Shown: positions 36,987-62,034 of the stretch, in pieces
Layout: every line of letters begins with the position of its first letter
Numbering within the stretch: the first letter of the stretch is position 1
DNA from: Anaeramoeba flamelloides
Taxonomy: Eukaryota > Metamonada > Anaeramoebidae
Direction: 5' to 3'
NCBI GenBank assembly: GCA_027625915.1
Contig: JANTQA010000032.1
Span: forward strand, 9,176,001 to 9,240,000
DNA length: 64,000 nucleotides
Notes under the pieces: generated by a model
Database searches by the model: none
The model's input: the letters and a program-made list of their open reading frames with translations, nothing else
What the model was told of the DNA's origin: nothing
Position numbers and translations under genes: made by a program

Positions 36987-37292
36987 TTAAACACCATAGC
37001 CATAAACAGTTCTTCTTTGTCTTTTCAGCGCATATACAACATCCAAAACAGTAACTGTTTTTCTTCTGGCATGTTCGGTATAAGTAACAGCATCACGAAC
37101 AACGTTTTCAAGGAAGGCTCTGAGAACGTTCCTGACTTCATCATAGATTGTTGCTGAGATTCTTTTGACACCACCTCTTCTGGCCAATCTTCGGATAGCT
37201 GGTCGACTGATCCCTTTGACAGATTCAAGAATTGCTTTTCTTCTTTTGGCACCTCCTTTTCCCATTCCTTTTCCTTTTCCTTTTCCTGACAT
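36987..37292 (-). CDS. H4: Histone H4
   Basis: Core nucleosome histone, 101 aa and intronless. The globular part is typical: [49 protein letters not shown]. The tail reads [19 protein letters not shown]: the acetylatable lysines corresponding to K5, K8, K12 and K16 are present, Arg3 is replaced by Lys, and the basic patch before the K20 equivalent is one residue shorter. The C-terminus is VYGYGV rather than LYGFGG. Divergently paired with the H3 gene 1,057 bp away and sharing a 35-bp upstream element with it. Confidence 0.97.
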
Positions 37293-38295: not shown

Positions 38296-38330
38296 AAAAT
38301 CATTTTTTATTTTTTAACTTTTATTATTAA
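38296..38330 (+). promoter_or_regulatory. Shared histone promoter element, H3 copy
   Basis: 35 bp ending 19 nt upstream of the H3 ATG, matching the H4 element at 32 of 35 positions. Just upstream both genes also have a TTTCACAA block (GGTTTCACAA at about 38249 here). Confidence 0.7.
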
Positions 38331-38349: not shown

Positions 38350-38895
38350 ATGGCAAGAACAAAACACGCAGGACAAAAAGGAACTAAAGGACAAAAAGGA
38401 CAAAAAGGAAGAAAATCCACAGGAGGAAAAGGACCAAAAAAAGGACAAAAAGGACAAAAAGGTAGAAAGGGGCAAAAAGGACGTAAAGGAACCAAGGGAC
38501 AAAAAGGACAAAAAGGTAGAAAAGGTACCAAAGGAACAAAGGGTACCAAGGGAACAAAAGGAACCAAAGGTGCTAAAGGAGAAAAAGGTACCAAAAGACC
38601 AAGAAGATACAGACCAGGTACAGTTGCCTTGAGAGAAATCAAAAAATACCAAAAATCAACCGAATTACTTTTAAGAAAGCTTCCTTTCCAAAGACTCGTC
38701 AGAGATATTGCACAAGAATACAAAGGTGATCTTCGTTTCCAAAGCGCAGCAATCGCTGCTTTACAAGAAGCCACCGAAGCCTATGTTGTTGGTGTTCTCG
38801 AAGATACTAATCTCTGTGCCATCCACGCTAAAAGAGTCACCATTATGGACAGAGATCTCTCTTTAGCTGTTAAAATTCGAGGAGACAAACTCTAA
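38350..38895 (+). CDS. H3: Histone H3 variant with expanded Gly-x-Lys tail
   Basis: 181 aa, intronless; canonical H3 is near 136. The globular part is clearly H3: [55 protein letters not shown]. The start ARTK is kept, as is RKSTGGK with its K9, S10 and K14 equivalents, but about 15 residues separate them. The rest of the tail (K18 to K36 region) is replaced by GxK triplets: 22 in all, mostly GQK, GTK and GRK. K27 and K36 have no clear equivalents; the K79 equivalent (EYKGDLR) is present. At DNA level the tail is a 9-bp minisatellite (GGAACMAAR, GGACAAAAA), which explains its length and the open antisense frames across it. The C-terminus [15 protein letters not shown] departs from PKDIQLARRIRGERA. 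It may be the main H3 or a special variant. Confidence 0.96.
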
Positions 38896-54051: not shown

Positions 54052-57000
54052 TTAATTTTGTTTATTTTGGAAATATTGAGAATAATTATAATTCCCACGC
54101 TTGGCCCTTGTACCTGTTATCCGTATTAATTTTTCAGAACTTCTAAAAATATCTATCAGTTCATCAAATAGCAATTCTTCGAGAACCAAATTTTTTTCTT
54201 TTTGAGCCCAAAGTATATCCTCCATCAGGCTTAAAATCATGTCGACATTTGGCAATTCGTCTTCCATGATACCACCAGACAAACCTTCGACGTATTCTCT
54301 AAGGAATTTTGCGGCTGCCCATACGACGCCAATATATAATCCCGCGATTCCGCCCATTGACAATGCCGTTTGTGAAATACTGGATTTTGGCACATCAGCA
54401 TTTTTAATATAATAGCTAATAACACTGTCTGCATCAGTACTAATTCCCCAATATTTGGTATTTGAGTTTGTATCATTTGTGCTGCCACTTAAGGAAATTA
54501 ATCCATCTATTGTCTGATCACAAATTTCTTCTGGATCATCATAGTTGGCAATATAAATGATCTCTGGGACAAAATTGTTGATTGCGATTTCACCATCTTC
54601 ATTTTTTTCTAGAAGGTCTGCGAGGTTGTTGGCCTCAGTTGTCGAGAAAGTGTGGGAAAAGGAATATTCTCTTACCAATGACTCATCCTCTCCTGTGGCA
54701 TACTCGGAGTAGAATTTATATTCTATATAAAAGGTATCTACTGCACTCGATCTTAAACCGTCAATTAGATCCTGTTCGCCGGCTGGCGTAATTCCCCAAA
54801 AGGATTCGGACAGCTCACTCATTTTGATTTCCTGGAAATAATCCGAATCTAAGGAATCTTTTCTTTCTGTGCACATTTGCAAAATTTCTTGATTTGAACC
54901 TATTTTGTCGCCGTCGAGCAATAACTCTGCATGGTACATTGATTGATACCCTTCTACGCCAAATTCTGTATCGATCCTTAAAACGGTATTTTTTGTAAAG
55001 TCCTCGTTGCTGGCCATTAATAACACTGGACCGAAAATTAAAAAGATGATCAAAATTAGGGCGATGACGGACATGATTATCTTGCTTTTGAGGGGCGTCT
55101 TTTGCCCTGGCTTGTAATCATCAAAATCCTCGTTTTCTGTTTCGCATTTTAATAGAAAGCATTTGCCATGGATCGCATGGAATCTAATAAATTCTTCCAA
55201 GCTTAAAGTAGTCTTCGTACATATCCAATCCAGAATCACTCTCAATTCAAAAATGAAGGGGATAACCATGTATATTGTAAAAAGCACTTTGGAAAATTTT
55301 GAATATCCCCTCATCAAGATATTTCCCGAGGTGAAGGATGGATATCCAAATCGTATTTGGAAACCAGAGAAGAAGAAATAACCACATTTCAATAAGTACA
55401 AAAATACCAATGAGGGCATCTCTGTGAATTTCACGTTTAAATTATATGGTATGATCGCAAATATTATGAACCAATGGATTATTACACTTAATAGCTGATA
55501 TATCAATTTGAGAGTTAACGTATTAAATAAATAAAATATTCGATCAGCTACAATTAAAGAAAATTGTAAGATTAAAATTAAGACAAAATTTAATGGAATC
55601 ATTTGTCCACTTGATAAATAAGAACTCAAATCGCCGGAGATGGTCTCACTCCAATTTTGATAATAAAAGGCTAAATGAACTAACGTAATGACATCAATGA
55701 AAAAGCATACTGTATAAAAATCTTTCCCTATTTTGCCTAAGGGATCTAGAATTTTTTTAATGATTCGAAATTTGCCTGTTTTTTTATTTTTCTCTTTTTT
55801 TCTTTTCATGATTTTCAATAATGCTTCTTGATCGATATTATCTTTTTGATTTTTTCTTAAATCTGACATTACTTTCGACAAATATAAATCATCTAAATTT
55901 GTTTGAGTTTTTTGTAAACTGACAGTTTTTGATTTTTTTTGTAATTCATCTCCAGAAGAATTTAAATTATTATCACTATTATTTTTTTTTATTATTGAAT
56001 CTTTTTTTTGATCGTTCACTTCTTCTTTCTCTCTCTTTTCTTCAGAGCTTTCTTCTTCTTCTTCTTCTTCTTCTTCTTCTTTTTCGTTTTCATTATCTTT
56101 CTCTTTTAATTTTTGATCTTTTTTTTTCCTAAAAATTGAAAAAAATTTCTTTTTTTTTTTTTTTCCTTCTTTTTCTATTTCTTCACCTTGATCTTGATCT
56201 GTTTTTTTATCATTATCTTTGTCTTTAATATCAAATAATTTTTTTTTATCCCATCTACCTTTTTTCAATAACATTGATCTATGGAATATCATTAAAATTA
56301 ATACCAAAATATTATCCCAAATAACTGTAAAAAAGGAATTTGTAGATTTATCAAAGCCAATAAAGTATTCTAAAAAGGATTCAGTACCCGCTTGACATTT
56401 AACTTTATCACAATCGGGTAAAATGGAATAATAACCCCACTGCTGGTTTAAATAGCAAAAGCACAAAATGTCTAATTGGAAAAAAAATGTTATTGCAATT
56501 ATTACCTGAGTATAAGCAATTAAAAATTGCCAAAATTTTTTACTGGGTTGGAAAAATAATGCTAAGCAAAATAATAACGTTGGGTACACTAAAGAAATGA
56601 TTGATGGGCTATTTAATGGCACAATGATAAACGCAAAATAGCATAAATATTCGGTATTATTTAATAAGAAATAAAATAATGAACAAAGGAACAAATATAA
56701 ATGATTTGGCTGCTTTTTAATAATTTCTCCTTTTTTGTTAAATGTTAATAATTTTTCTGGATTACGATACCTTTTAAGTCGAATTATTTCTCGAAATATT
56801 TTATAATTTTTATCTTTTATTTTGTTTCTTTCTTTCTTTTTAAATTCTTTAACTGTTTTTGATCTTGGTTCTAATACTTTTAATCCATTATCATCATTAT
56901 TTATTATGTCTATAAGTTGTTTTTGTTTTCGTTTTAGTTCTTGTTTTTCTTTTTCATCTTTTTCAATTTTTTTGATAACTGAATCCCCAAACCATAATTT

Positions 57001-60000
57001 AATAGAAATTCCTAATAGTAATGTTTTTGTACAATTAACAAGTAGAGATCTATATAATTTTGATAATATTCCAAAAAGTTTTGAAATTTTTTTTAATTTG
57101 TTATTGATTTGTTGTTTATTTCCCTTTTCATTTTTATTATCATTATCATTATCATTACCAGTACCATTATCATTATCATTATTGTTTATGTCATTTCCAA
57201 TATTATTTTTCTTCATTAGTTTGCTATTTTTTTTGAATTGATTTTTAACTAATTTTAATTTTTCTTTTTGTTTTTGTTTTTCTAATCTTTTTGTTTCTTG
57301 TCTCATTTCCTGGTTGTTTAATGATTCAATTTCTTGATTTTTTAATTGATCTAATTTCTTTCTTATTTGAACATATCTATTTTGTCTATTTTTTTCAGAA
57401 ATTGTTGATTCCATTTTTTGGAATTCACTTTGATAAAACTCATTTTCTTTTAATTGGATTGATCGCATTGTAATTTGCTTTAAATCATTTATTTTATATT
57501 CTAATAATCCTTTAAAATATTTTGATTCTGAAAATGTAATTAATAAGCTGACAAACAAATACACAAAAATATGCGATAATGCACCATTTAATGAAAATCT
57601 ATCAGAAGGGTCAGTAGCATTTAATCCAAAAATATTACTATAGCTAAATTTTTCTTCGCTTTGAGGAATAAAGGGGGCAGTGAAAAAAATGTAAATAAAG
57701 GATACAAATAATAAATAATTTCGTAAATTGACATAAGATTTTGAATAGTGCTTGATGGTTAATTTATTCAATTGATTTAAAAAGTACATTGTAAAGACTA
57801 CATAAACGAAATTAAATAATGTTTTCAATGGTATCGCAAATAAAAATATTAAAATAATTAATATAAATTTAATTTGTGATGCAACAGATAAAAAAAGTGA
57901 TTCAAAGGTTGTGGTCTTATTAGAAAATTTATAATATTCATCGGGAGTTTCATTTAGATTCTCAATTGAAAATTTATCATCATCATCATCACCACCACCA
58001 CTAGTTTCATCAACATCAACATAATCATTGTGATCATCTGTGTTATCAGAATTTGAATTATTACTATCATCACTAGAATTTTTTTTCAGATTTTGCTTCT
58101 TTTGCTTCTTTTGAAATTTTAATTTTAATTCTCGTTTTTTCAATACCCAAGATTTTGTTGTTAAAGAAAGAAAGAAAATTATAAAAAAATCCCCAGTTAA
58201 ATATGTGGAATTTTCAATTTTAATATCAAGCCAAATTAACATATCATTTGATAAACTTGTTTTAACGTCCTCTATAAAAGGCGGGAAACCTAATAATATC
58301 AAATATCTGCTTAATAATGTGAAACTAAAGAGAAAAATTAAAAAGCCATAAGTTTTAATATCCCTTTTCCTTTTTTTGGCATGCAAAACGATTAAAACGA
58401 TTATACATAATATACCAAAGATACTATTATTTAAAAATGCAACGATTAATAAAGTAAGATTGACAATGATCATACCAAATTTTAGTAATATATTATTAAA
58501 AAACATTTTGGTATAATTGGTAATTAATTCAAAGGTCTCTGTTTCTGCAATATTTTCTTTTTCAAGAAATAATTTCAATTTTTTATCATCTGGATAATAT
58601 TGCTTTTTATAATGGTTGACCTGCTGTGCTAATCTTAAAGTTATTAAAATCCAAACTGTCCCTTTGATTTCGCTTCTAACATATGAAATTTCAAATCCAA
58701 TATATTTTAAATATTTGTTATCATGGTAATCCGAGAAGTAATTAAAATGATATCCATATGTTCCCAAAATTATTAAACATGAATAAACAAAGACGATCGG
58801 CCAAATTTTTTTAATATTGGATTTCAAAATAATTGTTAATATTGAAAATAATAGAAAAATGAAATTCAATAAATTTGGTTCATAAATGGCAACAAAAAAG
58901 CACACAAATAGATATAATTGAAAGGAATAAAGGAAAATAAATCTTTTGATAAATTCAATAAATATTGGTAATTGGGTTTTATAAGCAGCTTCAAGATCTT
59001 TTTTCATGTTATCAAAATATATGTCAAATTTAAATGGAGAGAGTTCAAATTTTAAATATCTTTTTAAATTTTTTTGATTATCAAATTGAATTTTGATTTT
59101 TTTTTTTAAATTTTCTTGTTCTAAAATTTGGTATGTTTCACTAGAAATCAAATCGTCTGAAGTTTCATCAGAAGAATAATTTGAAAAATTATCGTTCCAA
59201 TTTTTTTTTTTTATTTCATCACCATCATTATCATCATCATCATTATCATCATCATTATCATTACTATTTTTATTATTATCATTATTTTGATCGATTTTAT
59301 TATTATTTTTTTTTTTATTAGCCTTTTCATTCTTGTTATTTTCTTTTTCTTTGTCGGATCTATCATTCATTTGTACTAATTTTGATTTATTTTTCATAAA
59401 AGTTAATTGAGACACCAAATATATCAATAATATTGATTGTGGCAAAATAATTTCCCAAGGGTTTTCTTTATATTTTATTAACCCGAAATCTTGATAAAAA
59501 GAATCAGCGTCAAATTTATTGGAGACTGTGCTGTTTATGTAATCAAATTGGAAACTATATCTGGCCAAGACCGTTATTCCAACACTTATTGTTAAAATAT
59601 AAAAAAATAAAATTAATTTTTTGCTCGTATGGATTATTGAGTGTATGTAAAAGCAAATAAATGTAATGACCAAATAAAACAAATGGATAATACAAATCCT
59701 AGTATAAATACAAAATAATAAAATTATTATGTAAGATAAATGTTCACCAAATTGATAAAAAAATTGATTATAATATTTGTTCAAAGTTTTGATCAATTTT
59801 AATTCTTCCATGCTATTTGCTTCTTCTTGATCATTAAAAAGAGCATTTTGTTTCATCGTCGCAAACGACATGTTTTGTTTTAATGTATTAAATTTATTAC
59901 CAATACCTGCTGTCATTCTTGATTGTTTTTTGTTTTTTTTGTTATTTAATTCAAGTAGTTTTTCATTATTTTGTTCATTCTGTTTGTATATTTGGTTGAT

Positions 60001-61204
60001 GTGGAATTGAATAATTGCAAAAATTGTGATTAAAATATTCCAAAAAATGAAACTGGAAAAATTAATATCAGAATATACTCCCAAGGTATAGACAATATTT
60101 GATTCTGTGCGTGTATTATTTGATATAAATGAGAAATTCCATAAAAACATTGTCAGTAATACTAATTCCGAATAAATTACTAACCAGATCCAATACTTTC
60201 TTGCAATTCTTTTGGATAAAATAAATATTACAAAAAAGATCATAAATACAGAATTTAAAATGGTTATATTATTTAAAGAGCTTACCACCACAATGAATAA
60301 AGATAAATAGTATGAATAGGCCATGAAAAATCGAATAATTAATTTCCCAATAATTTGGAAAAACTGAATTTTCTTTTTTTTCTTTCTCTTTTTCTGCATT
60401 TCCTGAAGATATGAATCATAATTTAAATCAGAATCGGATTTGGAACCATGATCACTTTTATTACTTTGATCAGATTTCTTATATTCATTGCTATTCTTTT
60501 TGCTTTTGCTTTTGCTTTTGCTATTTTTGTTCTCGTGGAAAGTTGTATTCACCCATTCAATGTTTCCAGAGTCGCTACTAGATTCTGTAGAAAGAAGCCC
60601 AAAATTTGTATCTGTAGTATTATTATTGTAATTTTGTTTTTTTTTGAATTCTAATTCATCACCATCATCAGATTTGGAATTAGTAGTATGATCATTATTT
60701 TTATTTTGATCAAAATCTGTATTATTATGGAATTTTTTTAAAGTATAAATAATTCTATTTTGAAATAATAAAAAGCTAATTGTAAAAATGCCAAAGCCAA
60801 AAAAAAATTTTGAATTTTCAAAATAAGTGAAACCAATGTCTTGTAATATATCAGAAGTGTCCCATCCAAAATCAATATTAAAAATATATTGAATCATATA
60901 AATTAGTAACACATAAATCGAAGTTACTGAGATTAAATAATTAAAGATAAAGGGGTAAAGAACAGAAATGCCACAAACTAGCCAAATTGGTAATGTTAAA
61001 ATACAAGGATTTAATGAAATCCAAAATATTAATAAACATATGGAAATGGCAAATACTAGTAATTGAATTAAGGATATTAATGCATTATTCATTTTTCCTT
61101 TTGGTTGTTTTTTTTGTTTTTTATCATTTTCATTTTCATTTTCGTTTTCGTTTTCATTTTCGTTTTCGTTTTCGTTTTCGTTTTCATTTTCATTTTCGTT
61201 TTCA

Positions 61205-61236
<32 letters not shown>

Positions 61237-62034
61237 TTTATTATGGTTATAATTTTGTTCTGTAAATATTGATGAAATGCTCGTAAAAATACCGATTAAT
61301 AAGAAAATTTGAAATAATGGAATATAGGATGTAGCAGTGATATCAAATATAAAAAAAAATCCCAAATTACTTGGAATGCTTGAAATCTCAAATTTTGGGA
61401 ACTGATATAAATAAAGTAAGATATAATAAACAAACGAAAAGAATAATAGGATTACCCAAAATGGTTTGAAATGGATTATTTTTTCCGAACCAAATGACCA
61501 GATTATAAAAAAGATAAAGACAGTTGTTAAATAAACCAAATTTAAAATGTTTGTCTCAAGAACACAAAAAATGAAAATTAATAATAATGAGATGAAGATT
61601 TTTAAAGTTAAATTGCCTTTTGGGAATGTAATTTCATTTTGATTTTTCCATAAATCCAATTTCTTAATTTTGTAATGATCATGATAAAATAAGATAAACG
61701 TAAGCAATGAATACAAAAACAATAGTATGTCAGGTGTCAAAGTTAGGAATCCCTGAAATGGATCAATCCATACCCTATTTTTATTTGATTTTTTTTGTGT
61801 TTTGTTTGGTTGTTTAATCAAGAGATAAATAGTTTTTGTTAATGAATTTATTTTTTTTTATTTTTCAGGTTAAATAATACAGTCATTTTTAAAAAGGTGG
61901 AAATTTCAAGTTTTAATAATTGAACATCAAATAATTATAGTTAAGTTATTGATTCACTGTTTGAAAAAGATATTAAAGTGGTACTAAGGATTTTAAAAGA
62001 AAGTTAATAACTTCTTCTTGAGGGTCAAGTTCAT
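54052..62034 (-). CDS. Piezo-type mechanosensitive ion channel
   Basis: Giant plasma-membrane cation channel opened by membrane tension. The open frame runs from 61774 to the TAA at 54052 and shows dozens of hydrophobic segments grouped like the Piezo blade repeats. The C-terminal pore module is diagnostic: the anchor motif PFIFELRVILDWICTKTT, an extracellular cap (about 54400-55010), an inner helix (GGIAGLYIGVVWAAAKFLRE) and the cytosolic LPNVDMILSLMEDILWAQKE and LEELLFDELIDIFRS segments. No ATG opens the long frame; I propose a 23-nt first exon 62034-62012 (MNLTLKK) and a 237-bp GT-AG intron to 61774, in phase. That gives 2,581 aa, usual for the family. Intracellular loops carry low-complexity runs, including (EN)n near residue 200, and Asp/Asn- and Glu-rich blocks. 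Almost intronless, unlike the neighbouring long genes. The start exon is an inference; the family call is firm. Confidence 0.93.
61125..61235 (+). repeat. Minisatellite coding for the Piezo (EN)n run
   Basis: Repeats of TTTTCR (on the plus strand) encoding alternating Glu-Asn in Piezo. Length is likely variable between individuals. Confidence 0.85.

Follow-up and report, generated by a model that had tools for sequence, protein, structure and literature searches.

Few eukaryotic sequences are as highly conserved as the N-terminal tail of histone H3; the C-terminal tail of linker histone H1 is a long lysine-rich arm, and the H3 variant CENP-A has a longer loop 1 that carries a tryptophan. Trichomonas belongs to the Metamonada, the same supergroup as Anaeramoeba. 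The motifs beside K4, K9, K14, K27, and K36 have been reported to be highly conserved in the H3 of Trichomonas (PMC2939574). Dinoflagellates are described as having divergent H3 variants with extended, divergent tails in which the K9 and K27 contexts are lost (PMC4751559). Sperm H2B histones of sea urchins and hydrozoans carry SPK(K/R) repeats, in a report whose title speaks of limited compaction (PMC9903204). DNMT1 has (GK) repeats, described as 13 alternating residues between two enzyme domains, whose lysines are reported to be acetylated and whose regulatory role is disputed (PMC5828336).

Here we compare with these systems a histone H3 gene from Anaeramoeba flamelloides that has an 85-residue tail built largely of Gly-x-Lys (GxK) triplets. 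The gene lies in a stretch of 64,000 nucleotides (the window), and positions below refer to it unless another coordinate is named. For this organism, an A+T-rich genome with more than 1100 ribosomal protein genes has been reported (PMC11550330). The window is 76.4% A+T; the genome has nine intact uL3 genes among 11 matches and yields 48 hits for the [FeFe]-hydrogenase family, 26 of which score >270 bits and cover all or almost all of the profile. These features fit the organism as described, and the PDB matches listed for one uL3 (60 of 69) pointed to no protist relative. The host is a single-celled eukaryote, probably an anaerobe. Elsewhere in the window, the reverse strand from 54052 to 61821 has a single open frame for a 2589-residue mechanosensitive channel of the Piezo type, which contains low-complexity loops of EN repeats and others rich in Asn.

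Results

The open reading frame at 38350 to 38895 on the forward strand is as a first-pass annotation described it and encodes a histone H3, of 181 residues plus the stop codon. The top PDB matches of the protein were histone H3 chains (E of about 5e-50), and it matched the Pfam Histone profile at 136 bits. Mature residues 86 to 180 (38608 to 38892) form a plain H3 histone-fold core, with 72 of 95 residues identical to human H3.1. The core aligned without insertions to H3 chains and has neither the longer, Trp-containing loop 1 nor the divergence of a CENP-A (cenH3) protein, and the linker histone winged-helix profile (PF00538) found no match in the 181 residues. Because the core defines the family, we class the protein as an H3 with a variant tail. 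It shares with canonical H3 (H3.1/H3.3) the core, the ARTK start, the RKSTGGK-P-K module, a K36-like site, and an adjacent H4 gene, and differs from it in the length, charge, and central segment of the tail.

Counted up to YRPGTV, the mature tail has 85 residues and a net charge of +33 (26 Lys, 8 Arg, and 1 Glu), compared with 40 residues and +13 for human H3.1, and so departs from the canonical plan of about 40 residues bearing K4, K9, K14, K18, K23, K27, and K36. It opens with the K4 module ARTK (38353 to 38364), followed by His-Ala where Gln-Thr is usual. A first block of five GxK triplets (mature residues 7 to 21; 38371 to 38415) leads into the RKSTGGK-P-KK module, which holds the equivalents of K9, S10, K14, and K18 (mature residues 20 to 30; 38410 to 38442) and whose RK overlaps the last triplet of the block. 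The second block, of 17 triplets (mature residues 31 to 81; 38443 to 38595), occupies the place of the K23-K27 segment, and the tail ends in RPRR. The annotation was right that the K4 and K9 modules are retained and set apart by repeats and that the K27 context is lost: the residues between roughly Q19 and G34, including K23 and the second ARKS (K27), are absent. Its statement that the K36 context had been lost as well does not hold, since human GVKKPHRYRPG is matched by a stretch containing TKRPRR (mature residues 80 to 85; 38590 to 38607; VKKPHR in human), a partly retained, K36-like site directly 5' of the core. In total the tail has 24 GxK triplets (runs of 5, 2, and 17), of which 22 lie outside the module; shuffling its residues 10,000 times gave a mean of 7.6 and a maximum of 16. 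Glycine follows 22 of the tail lysines, and the tail DNA is an array with a 9-bp period.

A search of the genome (254 Mb in 76 contigs) gave 113 matches to Pfam Histone (PF00125); because 150 of 156 candidates were scored, histone gene counts are lower bounds. We took as H3 class the 52 matches of at least 89 bits, every one of which was read in sequence; among 60 others, reading of seven (L061 to L067) showed them to be something other than H3, some H2A and H2B genes were read, and score and range alone served to assign the remainder. The 67-bit match at C51:408434 is a broken class B H3 that extends over several frames (L161, G000:C51:408300-409500) and contains a decayed GxK-like stretch. 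Thirty-five genes, which we call class A, are of the type found in the window. All have the tail sequence, so that the tail is neither a single odd copy nor an assembly artefact. Thirty-two of the 35 encode 181 residues, and 25 give the identical protein. Four copies look as though a triplet had dropped out and a new one had come in, still with 181 residues; L035 and L036 have GTK in place of one GAK; and L041 has core changes. The sole in-frame copy of another length, L042, has 169 residues, an altered core, and 13 instead of 17 triplets in the second block, and L009 and L026 are now frameshifted inside the tail. Five locus pairs (L009/L010, L021/L022, L026/L027, L029/L030, and L041/L034) are inverted duplicates 17 to 56 kb apart with upstream flanks 96.6 to 99.1% identical; one member is altered in three of them (two frameshifts and one core change), and the pairs may be real duplications or assembly doubles.

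The canonical H3 elsewhere in the genome that would have made class A a side branch was not found. None of the 52 H3-class genes has a normal tail, in a search that an intron-split H3 could escape, and a query of the genome with the human H3 tail, run without a positive control, gave no match. The other 17 H3-class genes fall into classes B (three, plus the broken copy), C (four), D (five), E (three), and F (two). The 12 genes of classes B, C, and D have runs of four or more GxK triplets in register (seven counted by computation and five read from sequence; the broken class B copy is uncounted), and these classes use other x residues (Leu and Lys). Loop 1 is longer and contains Trp in the 11 genes of classes C, D, and F (L045, L047, L049, L050, L052 to L055, L057, L058, and L060), which are in this respect CENP-A-like, and nine of these have GxK runs. 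In a tree of 22 rows (three class A, the 17 other H3-class genes, and two human; L042 left out), the 11 rows of C, D, and F grouped together (96/96), separate from the 9 rows of A, B, and E (84/96); the joining of C, D, and F with human CENP-A is a flagged long-branch case, with weak support for the human rows (57/28). On this tree the distribution of GxK repeats requires three changes: a single gain with two losses, or gains on more than one occasion.

Over all pairs of the 32 class A copies, pS was 0.36 and pN 0.0086 in the tail (ratio 0.024) and 0.29 and 0.0030 in the core (ratio 0.010), as uncorrected proportions between paralogues, in pairs that are not independent; the five near-identical inverted duplicates of class A, which may be assembly doubles, are a further limit. 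Across 23 loci of the identical-protein class (L021 and L029 having been dropped as near-identical partners of L022 and L030), synonymous variation affects 59 of the 79 tail codons and amounts to no fewer than 89 nucleotide changes; replacements are zero by construction. Identical proteins with such divergent silent sites are not what gene conversion would leave, since it would be expected to homogenize silent sites too. The residues at x (Gln, Thr, and Arg) are nearly all preserved at their exact places. Class A H3 is very probably under strong purifying selection, and synonymous divergence together with a fixed protein means that the GxK array is best read as a constrained sequence and not as a drifting minisatellite. 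Growth of the tail as a minisatellite, as first annotated, may fit its origin but not its present state, in which the array is nearly frozen.

A TCATTTTTT box lies at 38300 to 38308 on the forward strand, at -50. It recurs 34 to 53 bp upstream of the ATG in all 35 class A copies, damaged ones included, against a background of 31 in 1066 stretches of 120 bp, and it may be an initiator-like element. A histone H4 gene lies divergent from H3 at 36987 to 37292 on the reverse strand. Of the 35 class A genes, 27 have H4 within their fetched flank (23 divergent and 4 in the same direction), the flanks differing in length and short ones possibly cutting genes at the stretch end; 22 of these 27 reading frames give the same 101-residue protein, three are shorter, and two have changed ends. 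An upstream block shared by many class A copies, at first unexplained, turned out to be this H4 gene. H2B genes were present in all seven of the longer loci examined, six of which contain class A H3. Class A genes thus have the multiple copies, near-identical proteins, and core histone neighbors of replication-type genes. Copy number, constraint, the TCATTTTTT box, the H4 neighbors, and the lack of a normal-tailed copy together indicate that class A is very probably the organism's main (replication-type) H3, and presumably expressed as such.

Gly-Lys arms are also found on linker histones. The genome has 19 matches to PF00538, 13 of them within frames of 129 to 293 residues, and in seven of eight H1 reading frames read (L068, L069, and L150 to L155) there is a (KG)n run near the C terminus; the eighth, L155, has a mixed KG/K tail and a long Glu-Ser stretch. 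H4 has a tail of normal length, and no GxK array was found in the two H2A and seven H2B genes read. There are 50 bromodomain matches, hence many possible acetyl-lysine readers. The PRC2 marker PF18264 had zero matches in the genome and zero also in 14 prokaryote controls, and the chromodomain matches listed lie within open frames of at least 1227 residues (introns ignored). Among Gly-Lys stretches elsewhere in the genome, one reading frame (L160:2180-2764; G000:C34 from about 10299779) includes a stretch like the H3 tail, with 73% DNA identity to it over 162 columns, and lies near a frame that by eye resembles a von Willebrand A domain; it is possible that this stretch is a transplanted H3 tail or a mimic.

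Discussion

We consider that the GxK tail would act as a basic arm of the H1 type that is built into every nucleosome and probably tuned by acetylation, and give this reading a probability of roughly 0.6; expression, DNA contact, and acetylation are its predicted components. The tail has been rebuilt such that the K4 and K9/K14/K18 modules stay near the N terminus, while 17 GxK triplets substitute for the K23-K27 segment and five more are inserted between K4 and K9. Most likely, the result would be a long, flexible, nonhelical basic arm lying along linker DNA or extending to neighboring nucleosomes. Such an arm would add about 20 positive charges per tail, or 40 per nucleosome, over a normal H3, as H1 C-terminal tails do, and would hold the K4 and K9 marks out at its far end; the 22 glycine-followed lysines could serve as reversible acetylation sites that tune contact with DNA. 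The suggestion of a linker-histone-like basic arm in the first-pass annotation is supported by these findings. Since true H1 genes are present, the tail is no simple replacement for H1, from which it also differs in lacking a winged-helix domain and in being fixed to the nucleosome core.

The main rival to the basic arm is that the array is a sequence-specific docking platform, in which GQKG, GTKG, and GRKG would be recognized by dedicated reader or chaperone proteins and contact with DNA would be secondary. Near-complete preservation of the x residues, with a pN/pS of 0.024 despite wide synonymous divergence, favors docking, as do the many bromodomain matches. Against it, the array tolerates both the altered triplets of the four-copy subclass and GTK in place of GAK in L035 and L036, and the Leu and Lys at x in classes B, C, and D imply that the order is not rigid across classes; we regard docking as the principal function as rather unlikely. 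A plain charge arm, however, would need no fixed x residues, and their conservation suggests that some sequence-specific reading takes place in addition to the role as a basic arm.

It is improbable that the tail is a functionless product of neutral slippage during replication, in a genome that readily acquires low-complexity sequence rich in Lys. The 9-bp period of the DNA and the Gly-Lys stretches elsewhere in the genome are what slippage would leave, but it is contradicted by the tail pN/pS and by the constant length of 32 of the 35 copies, and the only in-frame length variant, L042, has a changed core as well. Slightly less probable still is that class A is a specialized or silent variant and that another H3 dominates: other H3 classes exist, and five of the 52 H3-class genes are without GxK runs, but in those five (the intact genes of classes E and F) the core is divergent and a normal tail is absent, whereas the GxK-tailed class A is the most numerous, has the top scores against the Histone profile, and is often beside H4. 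Least credible is a triple helix of the collagen type linking nucleosomes to one another, for although the tail satisfies the Gly-x-y pattern at the sequence level and passes the Pfam Collagen profile (PF01391; 43.8 bits against a cutoff of 27.2), to which extent the annotation's collagen-like label stands, and although the full protein matched 77 viral-contig loci, mostly collagen-like Gly-x-y repeats with Gly in at least 70% of one register of the best segment in 58 (the H3 core was in 0 of the 77 and, searched alone against viral contigs, had no relative), both long GxK blocks are without Pro, Lys at every third place with one acidic residue would make three chains repel one another, a nucleosome has two H3 tails where the collagen helix needs three strands, and the profile matches may reflect the Gly period only.

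A broader extension of the basic-arm reading, which we offer as a tentative proposal that is somewhat less likely to be right than wrong, concerns chromatin as a whole. Gly-Lys arms occur on the main H3, on additional H3 variants, on CENP-A-like H3s, and on H1, some of them perhaps gained independently, and these could amount to a chromatin-wide rewriting of charge and marks, in which the H3 code would be split into distal K4 and K9/K14/K18 and proximal K36 signals, K27 signaling would be abandoned, and a multilysine acetylation rheostat would lie between.

In the comparison with described systems, the best functional analogue and precedent appears to be the sperm H2B of sea urchins and hydrozoans, a core histone whose N terminus is extended by short basic repeats; that case concerns a sperm-specific H2B with SPK(K/R), whereas here the most numerous H3 class carries GxK (PMC9903204). 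The dinoflagellate variants likewise have extended, divergent tails, with the K27 context lost as it is here, but the accessible portion of that report suggests conventional H3 sequences too and makes no mention of a GxK array (PMC4751559). The DNMT1 repeats resemble the tail as a Gly-Lys run in a chromatin protein (PMC5828336). Among the literature matches listed, taken by title and the start of the abstract and mostly from outside subscription journals, none seemed to describe an H3 with a GxK tail. Dinoflagellates already provide examples of extended, divergent H3 tails, and a GxK tail on what is predicted from sequence to be the main H3 would be a new form; it is notable because of the strict conservation of the protein and its very probable status as the main H3.

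A main H3 with a different, strictly conserved tail allows one to ask which parts of the tail are indispensable. In A. flamelloides, the K4, K9-K18, and K36 contexts appear to be so, and the K23-K27 segment appears to be dispensable. The GxK tail also allows one to ask how far the charge and the tail length of H3 can change.
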